A DNA stretch of 41,712 bases, from positions 1 through 41,712 of the forward strand of contig JAAFIC010000019.1 in assembly GCA_013298565.1 (NCBI GenBank), in the 5' to 3' direction. The position numbers and the translations under genes were made by a program. Origin of the DNA: Alphaproteobacteria bacterium (lineage in GTDB: Bacteria > Pseudomonadota > Alphaproteobacteria > Elsterales > Elsteraceae). Under the pieces are notes generated by a model, which worked only from the letters and a program-made list of their open reading frames with translations, made no database searches and was not told the origin of the DNA. Numbering within the stretch: position 1 is the stretch's first letter; every line of letters begins with the position of its first letter. Positions 15,328-35,168 of the stretch are shown piece by piece.

Positions 15328-15582
15328 ATGCACGAGGGAGCTTGGACCGTCGCTGAGGCCAAAGCGAAATTTAGCGAAGTCGTTGAATCCGCCCGCACGC
15401 GGGGGCCACAGATCGTTACTCGCAATGGTCGCCGTGCGGTTGCAGTCGTTTCGATCGAAGACTGGGAGCGCAAAGCGCAGCGCAAGGGCAGCTTAGCGGA
15501 TTTCTTTGCGGAGTCGCCGTTACGCGAATCGGGGTTGGAGATTGAGCGCGTACCAGATGGGGCGAGGCCGCTCGACTTATGA
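15328..15582 (+). CDS. Phd/YefM-family antitoxin
   Basis: An 84-residue protein. WTVAEAKAKFSEVVESART and GPQIVTRNGRRAVAVVSIEDWE are the canonical Phd/YefM N-terminal DNA-binding fold. The C-terminal part (about residues 50-84, with LADFFAESPLRESGLEIER) matches the toxin-neutralising tail of antitoxins paired with VapC. The ATG at 15328 has a GAGAGG-type ribosome site upstream. The TGA stop overlaps the ATG of a VapC-like start (ATGA at 15579-15582), the classic coupled arrangement, but the toxin downstream is only a stub. It is therefore an intact antitoxin left without its toxin. Confidence 0.9.
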   Translation: MHEGAWTVAEAKAKFSEVVESARTRGPQIVTRNGRRAVAVVSIEDWERKAQRKGSLADFFAESPLRESGLEIERVPDGARPLDL

Positions 15583-15701
15583 GCTTTTTGCTCGATACCA
15601 ACATCGTCTCCGAGTGGTGCCGCACCTCAATCCCTGGCAGCAACCCTAACCCACAACCTCCGTCAACTGCCTCAGCGACTTCTCCAGCACATCCCGACTA
15701 A
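15579..15701 (+). pseudogene. VapC-like toxin stub, truncated after about 13 codons
   Basis: The ORF opens MSFLLDTNIVSEW, which is the exact start of PIN-domain VapC ribonucleases, with Asp6 as the first catalytic acid. After about codon 13 the similarity stops: the remaining codons to the TAA at 15699-15701 are proline- and serine-rich and run antisense into the 3' end of the convergent COG0523 gene. The normal protein is about 130 residues with three further acidic residues, all lost. A deletion or rearrangement junction near 15615-15645 is inferred. The product cannot be an active nuclease. Confidence 0.85.
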
Positions 15702-16671
15702 TATCCCGCGTAATCAACACGATGCGGCTGCGGTGATCGTCGTCGGGCCACGCCGGGAGTTGGACGGGTGGGTGCAGCAGATGTTGCACGCCGTGCAGGA
15801 CCGTCGGCACGGTTTGGCCGCGCAGGTTGAGGATGGCTTTCAGGCGTAGAATATCCTCACCGCGATAGGCGGTCAGCGATTGCAGCCACAGCGTTACCGC
15901 GTCCCACGGCAGCGACTCGGTGAGCGTTAGGCAGTGGGCCTCGATGCGGTCGTCGTGGCGGTTCAAATTATGGTGGTGATGATGATGATGGCTGGGCGCC
16001 TCATAGGCATCGGCATGCAACCAGCGGCGCACGTCTAGGCTTTTGGTCGCGGGGTTCCACAGCCCGGCTTCGATCAGGTCGGGCGCGGGCGCGTCAGTAC
16101 TGAGGATTGGCGCTGCGGGGTTCAGCGTGTGCAGCCGGGCTTTCAGCGCCGCAACAGTCGCAGGCTCGGCAATATCTTGCTTCGTGAGAATAATCCGGTC
16201 GGCCACGGCGGCTTGCTTCACCGCTTCGGGCTGGGCCGTTAGCGTGGCATCCCCCACGACGGCATCGACGGTGGTCACGACCCCATCCAAGCGGTAATGC
16301 GCCGCCACCAGCGGGTCTTGCATCAGTGTGTGTAAAATGGGGGCCGGGTCGGCAAGGCCAGTGGTTTCGATGATGACGCGCTCGAACTCCGGCACGGTGC
16401 CGCGCACGCGGTCGATGGCCATTTGCCGCAGGGTTTTCGACAGGTCCGACTGAATCGTGCAGCACAGGCAGCCGGAAGCCATGAGAATGCGCTGCTGGCC
16501 GTCGCTCTCCTCGATCTTTTCGATCAGATGATGGTCCAGCCCGATTTCCCCGAACTCATTGATCAGCACAAGCGCGTTTTTCAGCGCGGCGTCGCGTAAT
16601 AGCCGGTTTAGGAGAGTGGTTTTGCCCGAACCGAGAAAGCCCGTGAGCAGCGTGACGGGAAGCAGGCTCAT
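15646..16671 (-). CDS. COG0523 (CobW/G3E) metallochaperone GTPase, paralogue 1
   Basis: About 341 residues from the ATG at 16671. An in-frame extension to 16752 is rejected because the ATG overlaps the stop of the upstream WD40 gene as ATGA. Walker A GFLGSGKTT is at 11-19, the metal-binding CxCC motif SGCLCC at residues 67-71, ETTGLADPAP follows, then LTKQD as the guanine-specificity motif. A run of seven histidines with nearby His/Asp lies in the linker before the C-terminal CobW_C domain. Such GTPases deliver zinc, cobalt, nickel or other metals to client proteins; the client here is unknown. A second paralogue lies at 19032. Confidence 0.92.
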   Translation of the reverse strand: MSLLPVTLLTGFLGSGKTTLLNRLLRDAALKNALVLINEFGEIGLDHHLIEKIEESDGQQRILMASGCLCCTIQSDLSKTLRQMAIDRVRGTVPEFERVIIETTGLADPAPILHTLMQDPLVAAHYRLDGVVTTVDAVVGDATLTAQPEAVKQAAVADRIILTKQDIAEPATVAALKARLHTLNPAAPILSTDAPAPDLIEAGLWNPATKSLDVRRWLHADAYEAPSHHHHHHHNLNRHDDRIEAHCLTLTESLPWDAVTLWLQSLTAYRGEDILRLKAILNLRGQTVPTVLHGVQHLLHPPVQLPAWPDDDHRSRIVLITRDISRDVLEKSLRQLTEVVG

Positions 16672-17678
16672 GCCGCCTCTCCCGGAACCGAAAAGATCAT
16701 CGCGCGGCCATCGTCCGCCCCCGCGACCAAATGATGACCGTCGCGCGACCACGCAAGGCAGGTAACAGGGCCGCGTTTGGTAACTTGCACTTTGCCGCCC
16801 GCTTGGGTTGCAAGATCGACCATTGCCAGCGTGCCATCCTCATACCCACAGGCGATAAAATGCGTATGGGGGTGAGCGGCAACGCGGGTAACGGTGCTGT
16901 TCTTCACTTCTACCAACTCTAGCGGCGCACGCCCTTCCGGCCCCGGCCCATCGAACGGCCACGCCACCAGCACTTCGGCCCCCGAGGTGCAGAGCCACTG
17001 CCCATCCGCCGAAAACGCCAAGGAACGGACCTTGCTTTGATAGCCGGACATCCGCATCTCGCGCTTTTCATCCAGCCGCCAGCCGTGAACATCGCCTTCC
17101 TGGGTGGAGGTGGCGACAATCGTGCCTTCGGGGTTAATGACGACAGCGAGGTGCGAGCCTTTCCACACTAGCTTGCGCGGCTCGGCACTGCCATCCAGCG
17201 TCCAGAGCGTTGCGCCATTGTAGTGGCAGGCAACGAGGCTTTCGCCGTGCAGGGCAATATCCATCACGGTGCTATCGTGCGGCCCGTAGGTGGCAAGTTC
17301 ACGGCCATCGGCGGCGAGAAGCCGCACGTTTTTCCCCACGGCATAGGCGAGGCGGCCATCGGGCAGGACCGCCATAACCTCGATCCATTGGTGCGGGTGC
17401 TTGGCCCACTCTACCGGCGCACCTTGGGCCGGAATACGCATCACGCACCCATCTTCGCCGCCGGTCACATAACCGCCGTGAGGATGGGCGACCAGCGCCG
17501 TTAGCCCGCCCTTATGCACCTGCGTTTCGCTGGAAATTTGCTGGGCTGCTGTGATGAAGGGAATGCGGCGCAGCTTGCCATTGGCTTGACCCAAAGCGGC
17601 TTCAGTACAATCCCAGGCCACAGTAGCGCGCGTGAGATAACCGTCGAATTTCCAATTAGTCCGGGAGGCGTTTTGCAT
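16668..17678 (-). CDS. WD40-repeat protein
   Basis: A 336-residue protein made of WD40 blades, probably seven, without a signal peptide. Blade signatures include VAHPHGGYVTGGEDGCVMRI, VRSLAFSADGQWLCTSGAE, HTHFIACGYEDGTLAMVDL and VTCLAWSRDGHHLVAGADDGRAMIF. WD40 propellers are scaffolds for protein partners; no catalytic activity is expected. It is translationally coupled to the COG0523 GTPase by a 4-base overlap, which suggests it works with that metallochaperone. Its ATG lies only 2 bp after the stop of the AT-rich gene at 17681, and no ribosome site is visible upstream, so an insertion may have replaced its original leader. Confidence 0.88.
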   Translation of the reverse strand: MQNASRTNWKFDGYLTRATVAWDCTEAALGQANGKLRRIPFITAAQQISSETQVHKGGLTALVAHPHGGYVTGGEDGCVMRIPAQGAPVEWAKHPHQWIEVMAVLPDGRLAYAVGKNVRLLAADGRELATYGPHDSTVMDIALHGESLVACHYNGATLWTLDGSAEPRKLVWKGSHLAVVINPEGTIVATSTQEGDVHGWRLDEKREMRMSGYQSKVRSLAFSADGQWLCTSGAEVLVAWPFDGPGPEGRAPLELVEVKNSTVTRVAAHPHTHFIACGYEDGTLAMVDLATQAGGKVQVTKRGPVTCLAWSRDGHHLVAGADDGRAMIFSVPGEAA

Positions 17679-17680
17679 GT

Positions 17681-18100
17681 TTATAGAAATTTCTCAAGCA
17701 GTTTAGAGAGAATTGTGGGAAAGCTTAGCGTAATTAGAGCGAAAATAAGCAAGGTCCACCAATTCGGTAGAGTCGAGACTCTGCCTTCTAACCTGCCAAA
17801 ACTTTCAGAGGTCGGTAAATTTTTCATTCGCTCGTCAAGTTTAATTTCAATCTTGCCAATTCTTTCATCCAGACGCACCAAGTCGGCCTTGCTCACCATG
17901 TCCTTCGTGCGTTCATCAATCCGCGCAAGCACTGGCTCCAGCCGACCAAGAGTCGCCTTGACTTCTTTTACATCAATCTCAAGGGCTGCCACGCGTGCTT
18001 CCATATCAGGAGTATGGGGAGGACCACCGCCACCGTCAATTGGTGGAGCCAAGGGACGATCTGGAAAATGAATATGAACGCTTTTACGTTTCTCAGTCAT
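17681..18100 (-). CDS. Coiled-coil protein with C-terminal membrane anchor
   Basis: About 139 residues from the ATG at 18100, which has GGGAGG at ideal distance; a longer reading to 18145 is rejected. The N-terminus is basic and followed by a Gly/Pro stretch (PPIDGGGGPPH). A long heptad-like coiled coil follows (about 35-105, with VAALEIDVKEVKATLGRLE and LVRLDERIGKIEIKLDER). The protein ends in a single hydrophobic segment, WWTLLIFALITLSFPTIL, giving a tail-anchored topology. The family is not recognised; similar small proteins occur in phage and mobile-element contexts. The gene is AT-rich relative to its surroundings and overlaps the zinc-ribbon ORF upstream by 8 bases. Confidence 0.75.
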   Translation of the reverse strand: MTEKRKSVHIHFPDRPLAPPIDGGGGPPHTPDMEARVAALEIDVKEVKATLGRLEPVLARIDERTKDMVSKADLVRLDERIGKIEIKLDERMKNLPTSESFGRLEGRVSTLPNWWTLLIFALITLSFPTILSKLLEKFL

Positions 18101-18394
18101 TTTCTTGCCTCCCTCCGTCAAGCCAATCCTGAATGGAATGAGCAAAAATAAATGTCACAACCCCACAATTATCGCAAACAAGAGGGACAAGCTCTTGAAT
18201 AAAAGAAACTCCATGCTTGGGGTGTTTATAAAAATAAGGTATGGCAGGTAAAGTTGACTCATCAGATTGATATATTGGGGCCGTGAATTTACTCTCGCCG
18301 CAGCCATGACAGCGTAAGTTGCTTAATTTTTTTCTACGTATTGCTCAAGTTGAGTATTTGTGAACGAAACCAAGCCTTCCGTCTCTTTTCCCAT
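18093..18394 (-). pseudogene. Zinc-ribbon protein, frame interrupted at an A7 tract
   Basis: The ATG at 18394 (GGGAG upstream) opens a frame MGKETEGLVSFTNTQLEQYV that ends at TAA (18323-18325) after 23 codons. One frame over, an open frame continues to a TGA at 18093-18095 and reads KLSNLRCHGCGESKFTAP, later ELVPLVCDNCGVVTFIF and HSIQDWLDGG. It holds two CxxC knuckles typical of a zinc ribbon and has no start codon of its own. The two parts join perfectly if one base is added to, or the ribosome slips -1 at, the A7 run (18327-18333 on the minus strand). The joined protein would have about 100 residues. It may be a true frameshift, a homopolymer sequencing error, or programmed slippage. Confidence 0.75.
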
Positions 18395-18414
18395 GACGCA
18401 CTCCCGATATATGG

Positions 18415-18442
18415 ATAATACTCGCGCCAAAGCTGAACGCAA
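18415..18442 (-). promoter_or_regulatory. Possible sigma70 promoter for the zinc-ribbon operon
   Basis: On the minus strand, TTGCGT and TATTAT are separated by 16 bases and lie about 20 bases before the ATG at 18394. The -10 matches five of six consensus bases and the -35 only its TTG. It would drive the zinc-ribbon, coiled-coil, WD40 and GTPase genes. Confidence 0.35.
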
Positions 18443-18459
18443 TCAAGTGTACACTTCCC

Positions 18460-19035
18460 TCAGAACGAAGACCCCGGTTCGGCCAAAAACTGCACTTCTT
18501 CGGGCGTGCTCTCGCGGCCCAAAATTTCGTTGCGATGGGGGAAGCGCCCGAAGCGTTGGATAACGGCCCGGTGGCGTTCGGCGTAATCGGCAAGCTGGGC
18601 GCTGGCCAGCTCCGGCGCTTCCGCTTCAAGCTGGCGCATAAGCTCTACACTGCGGTCTTGCAGGGCCAGATTTTCGGCATGTTCCAGCGGCAGGTAGAAG
18701 AACAGCCGCTCCAGCGGGGTGAAGCGCTGTTGATAGCCGCGCTCTAGCCCCAGCAGCGTTACTTCCCGCGCACGGGCATCCCCCAGAAAGGCCAAGGGCG
18801 TGCCGCGATACGCATTGCGCGGGAACTGATCGAGCAGCAGCACGAGCGCAAGGGCGGAGCGCGGTAGCCCATCCCAGCCATCAAGCCCACTGCTGAAGGC
18901 TTGGCCGAGTTCAATCTGGAAGCGCCGGGCGATTTCCTGATCGAACGCCTCGCCGCCGTTAAACCATTCAGTGCGGAACTGTTGGGGCGTTTCGGCCCCA
19001 AACCAGAACTCCAGAATCGCGGCGGAACTGCTCAT
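18460..19035 (-). CDS. DUF924 family protein
   Basis: A 191-residue protein with the hallmarks of DUF924: ILEFWFGAETPQQFRTEWFNGG at the N-terminus, then ALVLLLDQFPRNAYRGTPLAF and FFYLPLEHAENLALQDRSVEL, ending with RFGRFPHRNEILGRESTPEE. The family has an all-helical TPR-like fold, is widespread in proteobacteria, and has no settled function. It is cytosolic. The start ATG at 19035 overlaps the stop of the preceding COG0523 gene by 4 bases, so the two are translationally coupled. Confidence 0.88.
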   Translation of the reverse strand: MSSSAAILEFWFGAETPQQFRTEWFNGGEAFDQEIARRFQIELGQAFSSGLDGWDGLPRSALALVLLLDQFPRNAYRGTPLAFLGDARAREVTLLGLERGYQQRFTPLERLFFYLPLEHAENLALQDRSVELMRQLEAEAPELASAQLADYAERHRAVIQRFGRFPHRNEILGRESTPEEVQFLAEPGSSF

Positions 19036-20000
19036 AGCTTCGGGCCTTGAGCGCAGTTGAGAAAGCCTTCCCGCAGCGCCTCGGCATCCAAATCGCGGCC
19101 AATGAACACAATGCGGCTATCGCGCGTATCACGCCCGCGCCAAGGGTTGCCCCAGCTATGGTTCATCTGCATATGCACGCCCTGAAACACGAAACGGCGG
19201 TTGGAGCCTGAGACGTTTAGAATACCCTTCGAGCGGAAAATATCCTGCCCTTTCAAGCGCAGCAGTGTGCCGATCCAGGCTTCAAACTTATCGGGGTCAA
19301 TCGGCTTATCGGTCGTGATCCCGACCGACGCCACGTCTTCTTCATGATGGTGGTGGTGATGATCGAGGAAATGCGGTTCCTGCTCCAGGATACGGTTCAA
19401 ATCGAACGCGCCCCGGTTGAGAATCTGCTTGAGGTCGATCTCGCTGTTTTGAGTGTGATAAAGCGGCGCGAAGCCATTGATCTTCCGCACGCGGTCTTCC
19501 ACCACCGCCAACTCTTCCGGCGACACAAGATCGACCTTATTCAGCAGCAACACATCGGCAAAGGCGATTTGTTCGACGATTTCATGCCCGTCGCCGACGT
19601 GATCGAGGAAATGTTTGGCATCGACTAGGGTCACGATAGCGTCGAGTTTAGCCGCTGCCTTCACATCAGGATCGACAAAAAAGGTCTGCGCTACCGGGGC
19701 CGGATCGGCAAGGCCCGTGGTTTCCACAATAATGCCATCGAACTCGCGCCCGCGCCGCATCAGGCCGCTGATAATGCGAATCAAATCGCCGCGTACAGTG
19801 CAGCAGATGCAGCCGTTGTTCATCTCGAACACTTCTTCGTCGGACTGCACGATGAGTTGATCGTCAATCCCAAGCTCCGCGAACTCATTGATGACCACAG
19901 CGTATTTCTTGCCGTGCGGTTCGCTCAGAATGCGGTTCAGCAGCGTGGTTTTCCCCGAACCGAGGAAGCCGGTGAGAATGGTAACGGGCAGTTGCAACAT
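19032..20000 (-). CDS. COG0523 (CobW/G3E) metallochaperone GTPase, paralogue 2
   Basis: A 322-residue protein of the same family as the gene at 15646. Walker A GFLGSGKTT is at 11-19, the CxCC motif NGCICC at residues 63-67, ETTGLADPAP follows, then NKVD for guanine recognition. A histidine run DHHHHHHEED lies in the linker, and the C-terminal domain contains LRLKGQDIFRSKGILNV and RDSRIVFIGRDLD. The opening VTILTGFLGSGKTTLLNRIL is very close to zinc-linked members such as YjiA and ZigA. It is followed by DUF924 with overlap. No Zur-type box was recognised upstream. Zinc handling is probable but inferred from subfamily resemblance. Confidence 0.92.
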   Translation of the reverse strand: MLQLPVTILTGFLGSGKTTLLNRILSEPHGKKYAVVINEFAELGIDDQLIVQSDEEVFEMNNGCICCTVRGDLIRIISGLMRRGREFDGIIVETTGLADPAPVAQTFFVDPDVKAAAKLDAIVTLVDAKHFLDHVGDGHEIVEQIAFADVLLLNKVDLVSPEELAVVEDRVRKINGFAPLYHTQNSEIDLKQILNRGAFDLNRILEQEPHFLDHHHHHHEEDVASVGITTDKPIDPDKFEAWIGTLLRLKGQDIFRSKGILNVSGSNRRFVFQGVHMQMNHSWGNPWRGRDTRDSRIVFIGRDLDAEALREGFLNCAQGPKL

Positions 20001-34105: not shown

Positions 34106-34140
34106 CCTGCGTAAAAATGCTGCAACGAGAGCGGTTTGGG

Positions 34141-34165
34141 GGGAGGCTTCGGCCTCCCTTTTTTT
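34141..34165 (+). terminator. Strong intrinsic terminator after phaB
   Basis: gggaggc and gcctccc form a perfect 7-bp GC-rich stem with a TTCG tetraloop, followed by seven T residues. It lies 35 bp after the phaB stop and excludes the upstream start option (34136) for the next gene, which instead begins at 34184. Confidence 0.9.
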
Positions 34166-34183
34166 ATGGGGCGAGAGAATACT

Positions 34184-35086
34184 ATGGCAGGGTCTTCGGT
34201 CGGTACGGCCACACTGTTGGGCAGTGTCGCAATTCTTCTCTGGGGAAGCCTAGCACTGCTAACCACGCTGGCGGGGCCAGTGCCGCCGTTTTTGCTGACC
34301 GCGATCACCTTCGGCCTCGCCGGGAGTATCGGCACGGGCTTTATTCTGCTGCGCGGGGCGACGGGGCGGGCTGCCGTGGCCGCGTGGGGGCAGCAGACCG
34401 TGCGGGCTTGGGCTATCGGCGTCGGCGGGTTGTTCGGCTATCATCTGCTTTTTTTCGTGGCCCTGCGCTCGGCCCCTGCGGTGCAAGCGAACCTGATTAA
34501 CTATCTGTGGCCGCTGTGCATTGTCGTATTCTCGGCTTTTTTACCGGGCGAGCGCCTGCGTTGGTTTCATAGCGTTGGCGGGCTGTTGGGCCTTGCCGGG
34601 ACCGTGTTGCTGGTGGGCGGCCCTGCGCTGGAGGTGCGTGCGGAGTTTCTGCCCGGCTATCTTGCGGCCTGTGGCGCGGCGGTGTGCTGGGGCGGCTATT
34701 CAGTTCTCTCCCGCCGCTATTGCGCTGCTGTGCCGACCGATTTCGTCGCCGCCCTCTGCCTTGTCACCGCTCTTCTGGCCGGTCTCTGTCATCTGGCTTT
34801 GGAAACACCCTACGCCCCCAGCGCGCAAGATTGGGCGATCATGGCGATTATGGGGGCCGGGCCGCTGGGGGCCGCGTTCTTTTTCTGGGATATTGGTATC
34901 AAGCGCGGCTTGTTGCGGACGTTGGGGGCCGCCTCCTACGCCACGCCGCTGCTCTCCACCCTTGGGCTTTATTTAGGGGGGCGCGCGCAAATTACGCTGG
35001 AGGTTTTAGGAGCGGCACTCTTAATCGTCGGCGGCGCGGTGCTAGCGGGGAGCGACGCCTTGCGCGCCCAAAAAACGACATCGTAA
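34184..35086 (+). CDS. DMT-superfamily (EamA) exporter, YddG-like
   Basis: About 300 residues from the ATG at 34184; an upstream in-frame start lies before the phaB terminator and is rejected. About ten membrane segments form two EamA repeats, with LWGSLALLTTLAG, HLLFFVALRSAPAVQANLINYLWPL, CWGGYSVLSRRYC and GAASYATPLLSTLGLYLGG. These resemble YddG-type exporters of aromatic amino acids; the substrate is inferred only from resemblance. The C-terminus QKTTS and the TAA stop fall at the start of a 16-bp tandem repeat array, which may have grown from the gene's own last bases. Confidence 0.87.
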   Translation: MAGSSVGTATLLGSVAILLWGSLALLTTLAGPVPPFLLTAITFGLAGSIGTGFILLRGATGRAAVAAWGQQTVRAWAIGVGGLFGYHLLFFVALRSAPAVQANLINYLWPLCIVVFSAFLPGERLRWFHSVGGLLGLAGTVLLVGGPALEVRAEFLPGYLAACGAAVCWGGYSVLSRRYCAAVPTDFVAALCLVTALLAGLCHLALETPYAPSAQDWAIMAIMGAGPLGAAFFFWDIGIKRGLLRTLGAASYATPLLSTLGLYLGGRAQITLEVLGAALLIVGGAVLAGSDALRAQKTTS

Positions 35087-35168
35087 AAAAAAGACTTCGT
35101 AAAAAAAAGACTTCGTAAAAAAAAGACTTCGTAAAAAAAAGACTTCGTAAAAAAAAGACTTCGTAAAA
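35082..35168 (+). repeat. 16-bp tandem repeat with A8 tracts
   Basis: Five identical copies of cgtaaaaaaaagactt run from 35082 to 35161, followed by a 7-bp partial copy. The first unit includes the TAA stop of the exporter gene, and the 16 bases before it (35066-35081) are a degenerate copy, so the array probably expanded from coding sequence. Every unit contains an A8 run, which makes copy number and A-tract length prone to slippage. Confidence 0.95.

Follow-up and report, generated by a model that had tools for sequence, protein, structure and literature searches.

A phage-type gene pair inserted between two host genes of an Elsteraceae bacterium, with a probable ordinary frame break at an A7 run in its first gene

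A small, probably zinc-binding gene of an alphaproteobacterium of the family Elsteraceae changes frame at a run of seven adenines (A7), directly before a stop codon and in the setting of a slippery heptamer. The same arrangement could be read as programmed frameshifting, as transcriptional slippage, as a real mutation or as a homopolymer error in the sequence, the four options that an earlier sequence-only reading of the locus had put forward. Which of them explains the split gene? The window, that is, the whole stretch of DNA that was analysed (41,712 nucleotides, contig JAAFIC010000019.1 of assembly GCA_013298565.1), carries the gene and its surroundings on the minus strand throughout. The coordinates are collected in Table 1.

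Table 1. Features of the split gene, its partner and their surroundings, in window positions.
Feature	Position	Strand	Remark
0-frame N-terminal part, probable zinc-binding gene	18323..18394	-	23 codons + TAA
Shine-Dalgarno-like GGGAG, 5' of the 0-frame ATG	18401..18405	-	
A7 run at the frame change (T7 on + strand)	18327..18333	-	
-1 frame, C-terminal part with CHGC and CDNC	18093..18344	-	opens after a TGA, closes at a TGA
Intact partner gene, 139 aa coiled-coil protein, C-terminal membrane segment	17681..18100	-	
Partner's own Shine-Dalgarno-like GGAGGGAGG	18108..18116	-	
AT-rich island, 781 bp, split gene and partner	17679..18459	-	45% GC vs window 60%
DUF924 chromosomal gene, flank upstream of island	18460..19035	-	
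WD40-repeat chromosomal gene, flank downstream of island	16668..17678	-	

The layout at the frame change is as the sequence-only reading had described it. The short 0 frame has an ATG of its own (18394-18392) preceded by a ribosome site, and its product, MGKETEGLVSFTNTQLEQYVEKN, ends at a TAA (18325-18323) immediately 3' of A7. The codons across the junction read GTA GAA AAA AAT TAA; the slippery heptamer A_AAA_AAT, of the form X_XXZ_ZZN in the 0 frame, lies directly 5' of the TAA. The neighbouring -1 frame holds both CxxC motifs and terminates at a TGA (18095-18093), and there is no ATG, GTG or TTG in it between 18344 and 18093. From A7 onward it reads KKLSNLRCHGCG...RQEND, a stretch of 79 residues (P0001). 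Only the ~19 nt leading up to the TAA are open in both frames, and the sole run of seven or more within the gene falls at this co-open stretch, a coincidence with a chance of ~13/296 (4%).

The short frame, having its own ribosome site, might be thought to encode a leader peptide of 23 codons, with the -1 frame open by chance. First-order Markov sequences of matching composition reach 79 open codons with P = 0.017; if two CxxC motifs are required as well, P falls to 1e-4. The -1 frame also has homologues in phages and genomes, which refute the leader-peptide reading, and the N-terminal part comes from the same family; we give this reading next to no credence.

Do the two parts belong to one protein? 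When joined, they align with positions 14-120 of the 124 positions of phrog_4293 (E 5.5e-5), and the C-terminal part alone matches the same family with E 0.0029. Against a test profile made from four relatives, with the window sequence left out, the C-terminal part alone scores 26.3 bits and the joined protein 34.2 bits. With shuffled N-termini (n = 2000) the mean score is 27.9, and 1/2000 reaches 34.2. The N-terminal half thus improves the fit to the profile, which identifies the two parts as halves of one gene and as remnants of a single ancestral protein. This supports the proposal, made from the letters, of a coherent protein with about 100 residues that A7 splits. The name zinc ribbon, used in the same proposal, derives from the two CxxC motifs. 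The motifs are present and the product is probably zinc-binding; the ribbon fold, with two zinc knuckles on beta hairpins, is a candidate, the structure model being poor (pLDDT 69) and giving no significant fold match.

The genes that accompany the relatives are of phage type in several cases. Viral contig L019 (IMG/VR 3300010207_000039) has an S24/HTH repressor, a two-CxxC gene and an overlapping gene for a coiled-coil membrane protein, which is about 43-45% identical to the partner protein in the window. In L056, which comes from a genome (G655) in a different class of the phylum, an HTH_3 repressor is accompanied by the same pair of genes, likewise overlapping, and by one more coiled-coil gene. 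Two coiled-coil membrane genes follow one another there after the two-CxxC gene (L056 1498-2492), and some phages may have a duplicated coiled-coil partner. The third relative (L006/L058) is found among genes resembling phage tail and head-joining genes, with a two-helix membrane protein as neighbour in place of the coiled-coil partner, and the fourth, a weak match, lies beside cI of a Yersinia phage. In each of the four, a single frame runs through the zinc gene without a break, and A7 is missing at the junction; this comparison tests conservation only at long range, the closest zinc-gene homologues in the collections being ~25-32% identical. Genome contigs, viral contigs, plasmids and phages yielded no close homologue of P0001.

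Several other candidates were set aside. L002, taken for a homologue of P0001, is a false match: its 37 matching residues lie in the frame of an unrelated membrane protein. L007 and L008, which match phrog_4293, have internal stops and were left out. L020, L021 and L023/L024, matches to the partner protein, have only the coiled-coil and membrane type in common with it and no adjoining zinc gene.

The partner gene is intact; it shares its first 8 nt, from the ATG on, with the end of the -1 frame. The island formed by the two genes is absent from two genus mates, whose flanking DNA is ~86% and 77-79% identical to that of the window. In both, the equivalents of window positions 17678 and 18460 are adjacent, and the stop of the DUF924 gene overlaps the start of the WD40 gene as TGATG. 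The presence of the empty site in two congeners therefore marks the island as a recent, clean insertion, which the alignments place exactly between the DUF924 and WD40 genes. Terminal repeats that would show a transposition mechanism were looked for at the island, and none was found. Nor does a repressor, an integrase or any other phage gene accompany the pair here; a search of the PADLOC defence-system library gave no match, and a promoter scan gave one weak site, inside the partner gene and at chance level.

The flanking genes have neighbours of their own. Two genes of CobW/G3E-type GTPases with histidine-rich stretches, named by eye from the sequence (15646-16752 and 19032-20000), flank the DUF924/WD40 pair, placing two metal-handling-like genes close together. 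Further along, at 15328-15701, a Phd/YefM antitoxin gene (PF02604, E 1.8e-14) precedes an apparent PIN toxin of which only some 13 initial residues (MSFLLDTNIVSEW) are recognizable before similarity stops; this is probably a truncated toxin-antitoxin pair, and the stretch is largely missing from the genus mates. Elsewhere in the window, just after a transporter-like gene, a 16-bp tandem repeat of 6.2 copies (AAAAAAAGACTTCGTA; 35070-35168) includes five A8 runs and is a possible variable-number site.

How, then, is the frame change at A7 to be interpreted? Programmed frameshifting requires conservation, and usually a stimulator too. Functional recoding, whether by -1 frameshifting on A_AAA_AAT or by transcriptional slippage on A7, would provide a controlled share of full-length protein together with the short peptide. 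The heptamer is in the right frame directly before the stop and the downstream frame is undecayed over its 79 codons, but the search for the same A-run and stop in homologues, which the sequence-only reading had suggested, returned four of four relatives that are unbroken and without the run. Shuffled sequences fold as well as the RNA downstream of the junction (z 0.0 to 0.6), Rfam gives no match, and the sequence 5' of the heptamer holds no Shine-Dalgarno-like (AGGAG-like) stimulator. Mobile genes are the main known source of programmed frameshifting (Antonov et al., 2013; PMC3711429), yet motifs that end in AAU belong to the weaker, heterogeneous kind: when all heptamers were surveyed in E. 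coli, a second codon that mixes purines and pyrimidines, like AAU, gave less shifting (PMC4066793). Of the hallmarks of -1 programmed frameshifting the gene thus has the heptamer, in a weak type, and neither conservation nor stimulator. A gene that uses transcriptional slippage would be expected to have a conserved A or T run of about nine or more, and selection against slippage is, in many genomes, usually evident only from nine A's or T's (PMC1088944); the run here is A7 and unconserved. Neither programmed frameshifting nor transcriptional slippage is borne out, and functional recoding is improbable. Transcriptional insertion errors increase exponentially as runs lengthen (PMC5574713), so that traces of full-length protein are possible. 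That A7 works as a low-level switch, in which slippage in transcription, translation or replication would limit a newly acquired phage-cargo protein to trace or variable amounts, the membrane partner being made normally, is very improbable.

The remaining two options are a real indel and a sequence error, and the indel is somewhat preferred. Were the change due to assembly or to homopolymer sequencing, the gene would be intact in the organism, with a product of ~100 residues. The location of the frame change exactly at the gene's only long run agrees with such an error, as do the two undecayed halves that fit one family. Frame transitions that are unclustered or singletons mostly come down to sequencing errors, recent indels, overlaps or false positives, and for BLAST-supported singletons a sequencing error is the usual expectation (Antonov et al., 2013; PMC3711429). 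However, when 30 of the 314 A7 sites in the genome were sampled, at least 16 lay in open stretches of at least 200 codons and a clear break of this kind was seen at 0/30. On the same contig, moreover, two T7 runs (34159 and 34449) lie inside one intact 316-aa gene (34136-35086). The unbroken state of these sites makes a systematic error less likely than a real indel, while a single error is still conceivable; overall we regard an error as rather unlikely. The absence of stops over 79 codons of the -1 frame counts against an indel, as it implies that the break is very recent, or that the gene is still selected, or that the assembly is wrong. Homologues intact in one frame and a query that is broken, the pattern by which a pseudogene is recognized, are what is found here. 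On balance, a recent indel that caused an ordinary frame break in a recently acquired, phage-derived cargo gene is the probable explanation, ahead of an assembly error and, after that, of functional recoding.

The history of the locus may be pictured as follows. A cassette of two overlapping genes of temperate-phage type, which normally adjoins a phage repressor, recently entered the chromosome between two of its genes. If the frame break is real, the first gene of the cassette then went out of frame through a one-base change in the A run, most likely by replication slippage. We infer that the cells really carry the frame change and that it entails loss of function: the split gene would yield at most a peptide of 23 residues, with full protein appearing only in traces through accidental slippage, and the partner gene, with its own ribosome site, stays intact. 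The intact pair is probably, on a tentative reading, cargo expressed in lysogens, whose target is the cell envelope or incoming phages; lysogenic expression is suggested because the pair adjoins repressors, and the envelope because the partner is a membrane protein.

The locus offers a caution, namely that where the relatives are unbroken, a heptamer that looks slippery and precedes a stop does not count as evidence of recoding. It also yields two by-products of modest use: a phage gene pair (two-CxxC and coiled-coil membrane) next to repressors, which is widely scattered and unannotated, and a clean recent insertion of such a pair between host genes, with the empty site known from congeners.

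Compared with known systems, the gene resembles the -1 programmed frameshift genes (IS elements and dnaX, with heptamers of the A_AAA_AAG type) in having a slippery heptamer before a stop, but it has AAT rather than AAG or AAA, no stimulator and no conservation of the heptamer. With phrog_4293, phage proteins of unknown function, it shares a weak match along most of the family's length, although here the gene is split. The repressor-zinc-coiled-coil block of L019 and L056 has the same order of the two genes and the same overlap, whereas the zinc gene there is unbroken and the repressor alongside; of the features of phage repressor-side cargo, the gene pair and its overlap are present in the window, and repressor or phage genes only in L019 and L056. 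From the singleton frame-broken genes and pseudogenes of Antonov et al. (2013; PMC3711429) it differs in no respect that we found: like them, it is a single case, a break supported by homologues, and mobile cargo.
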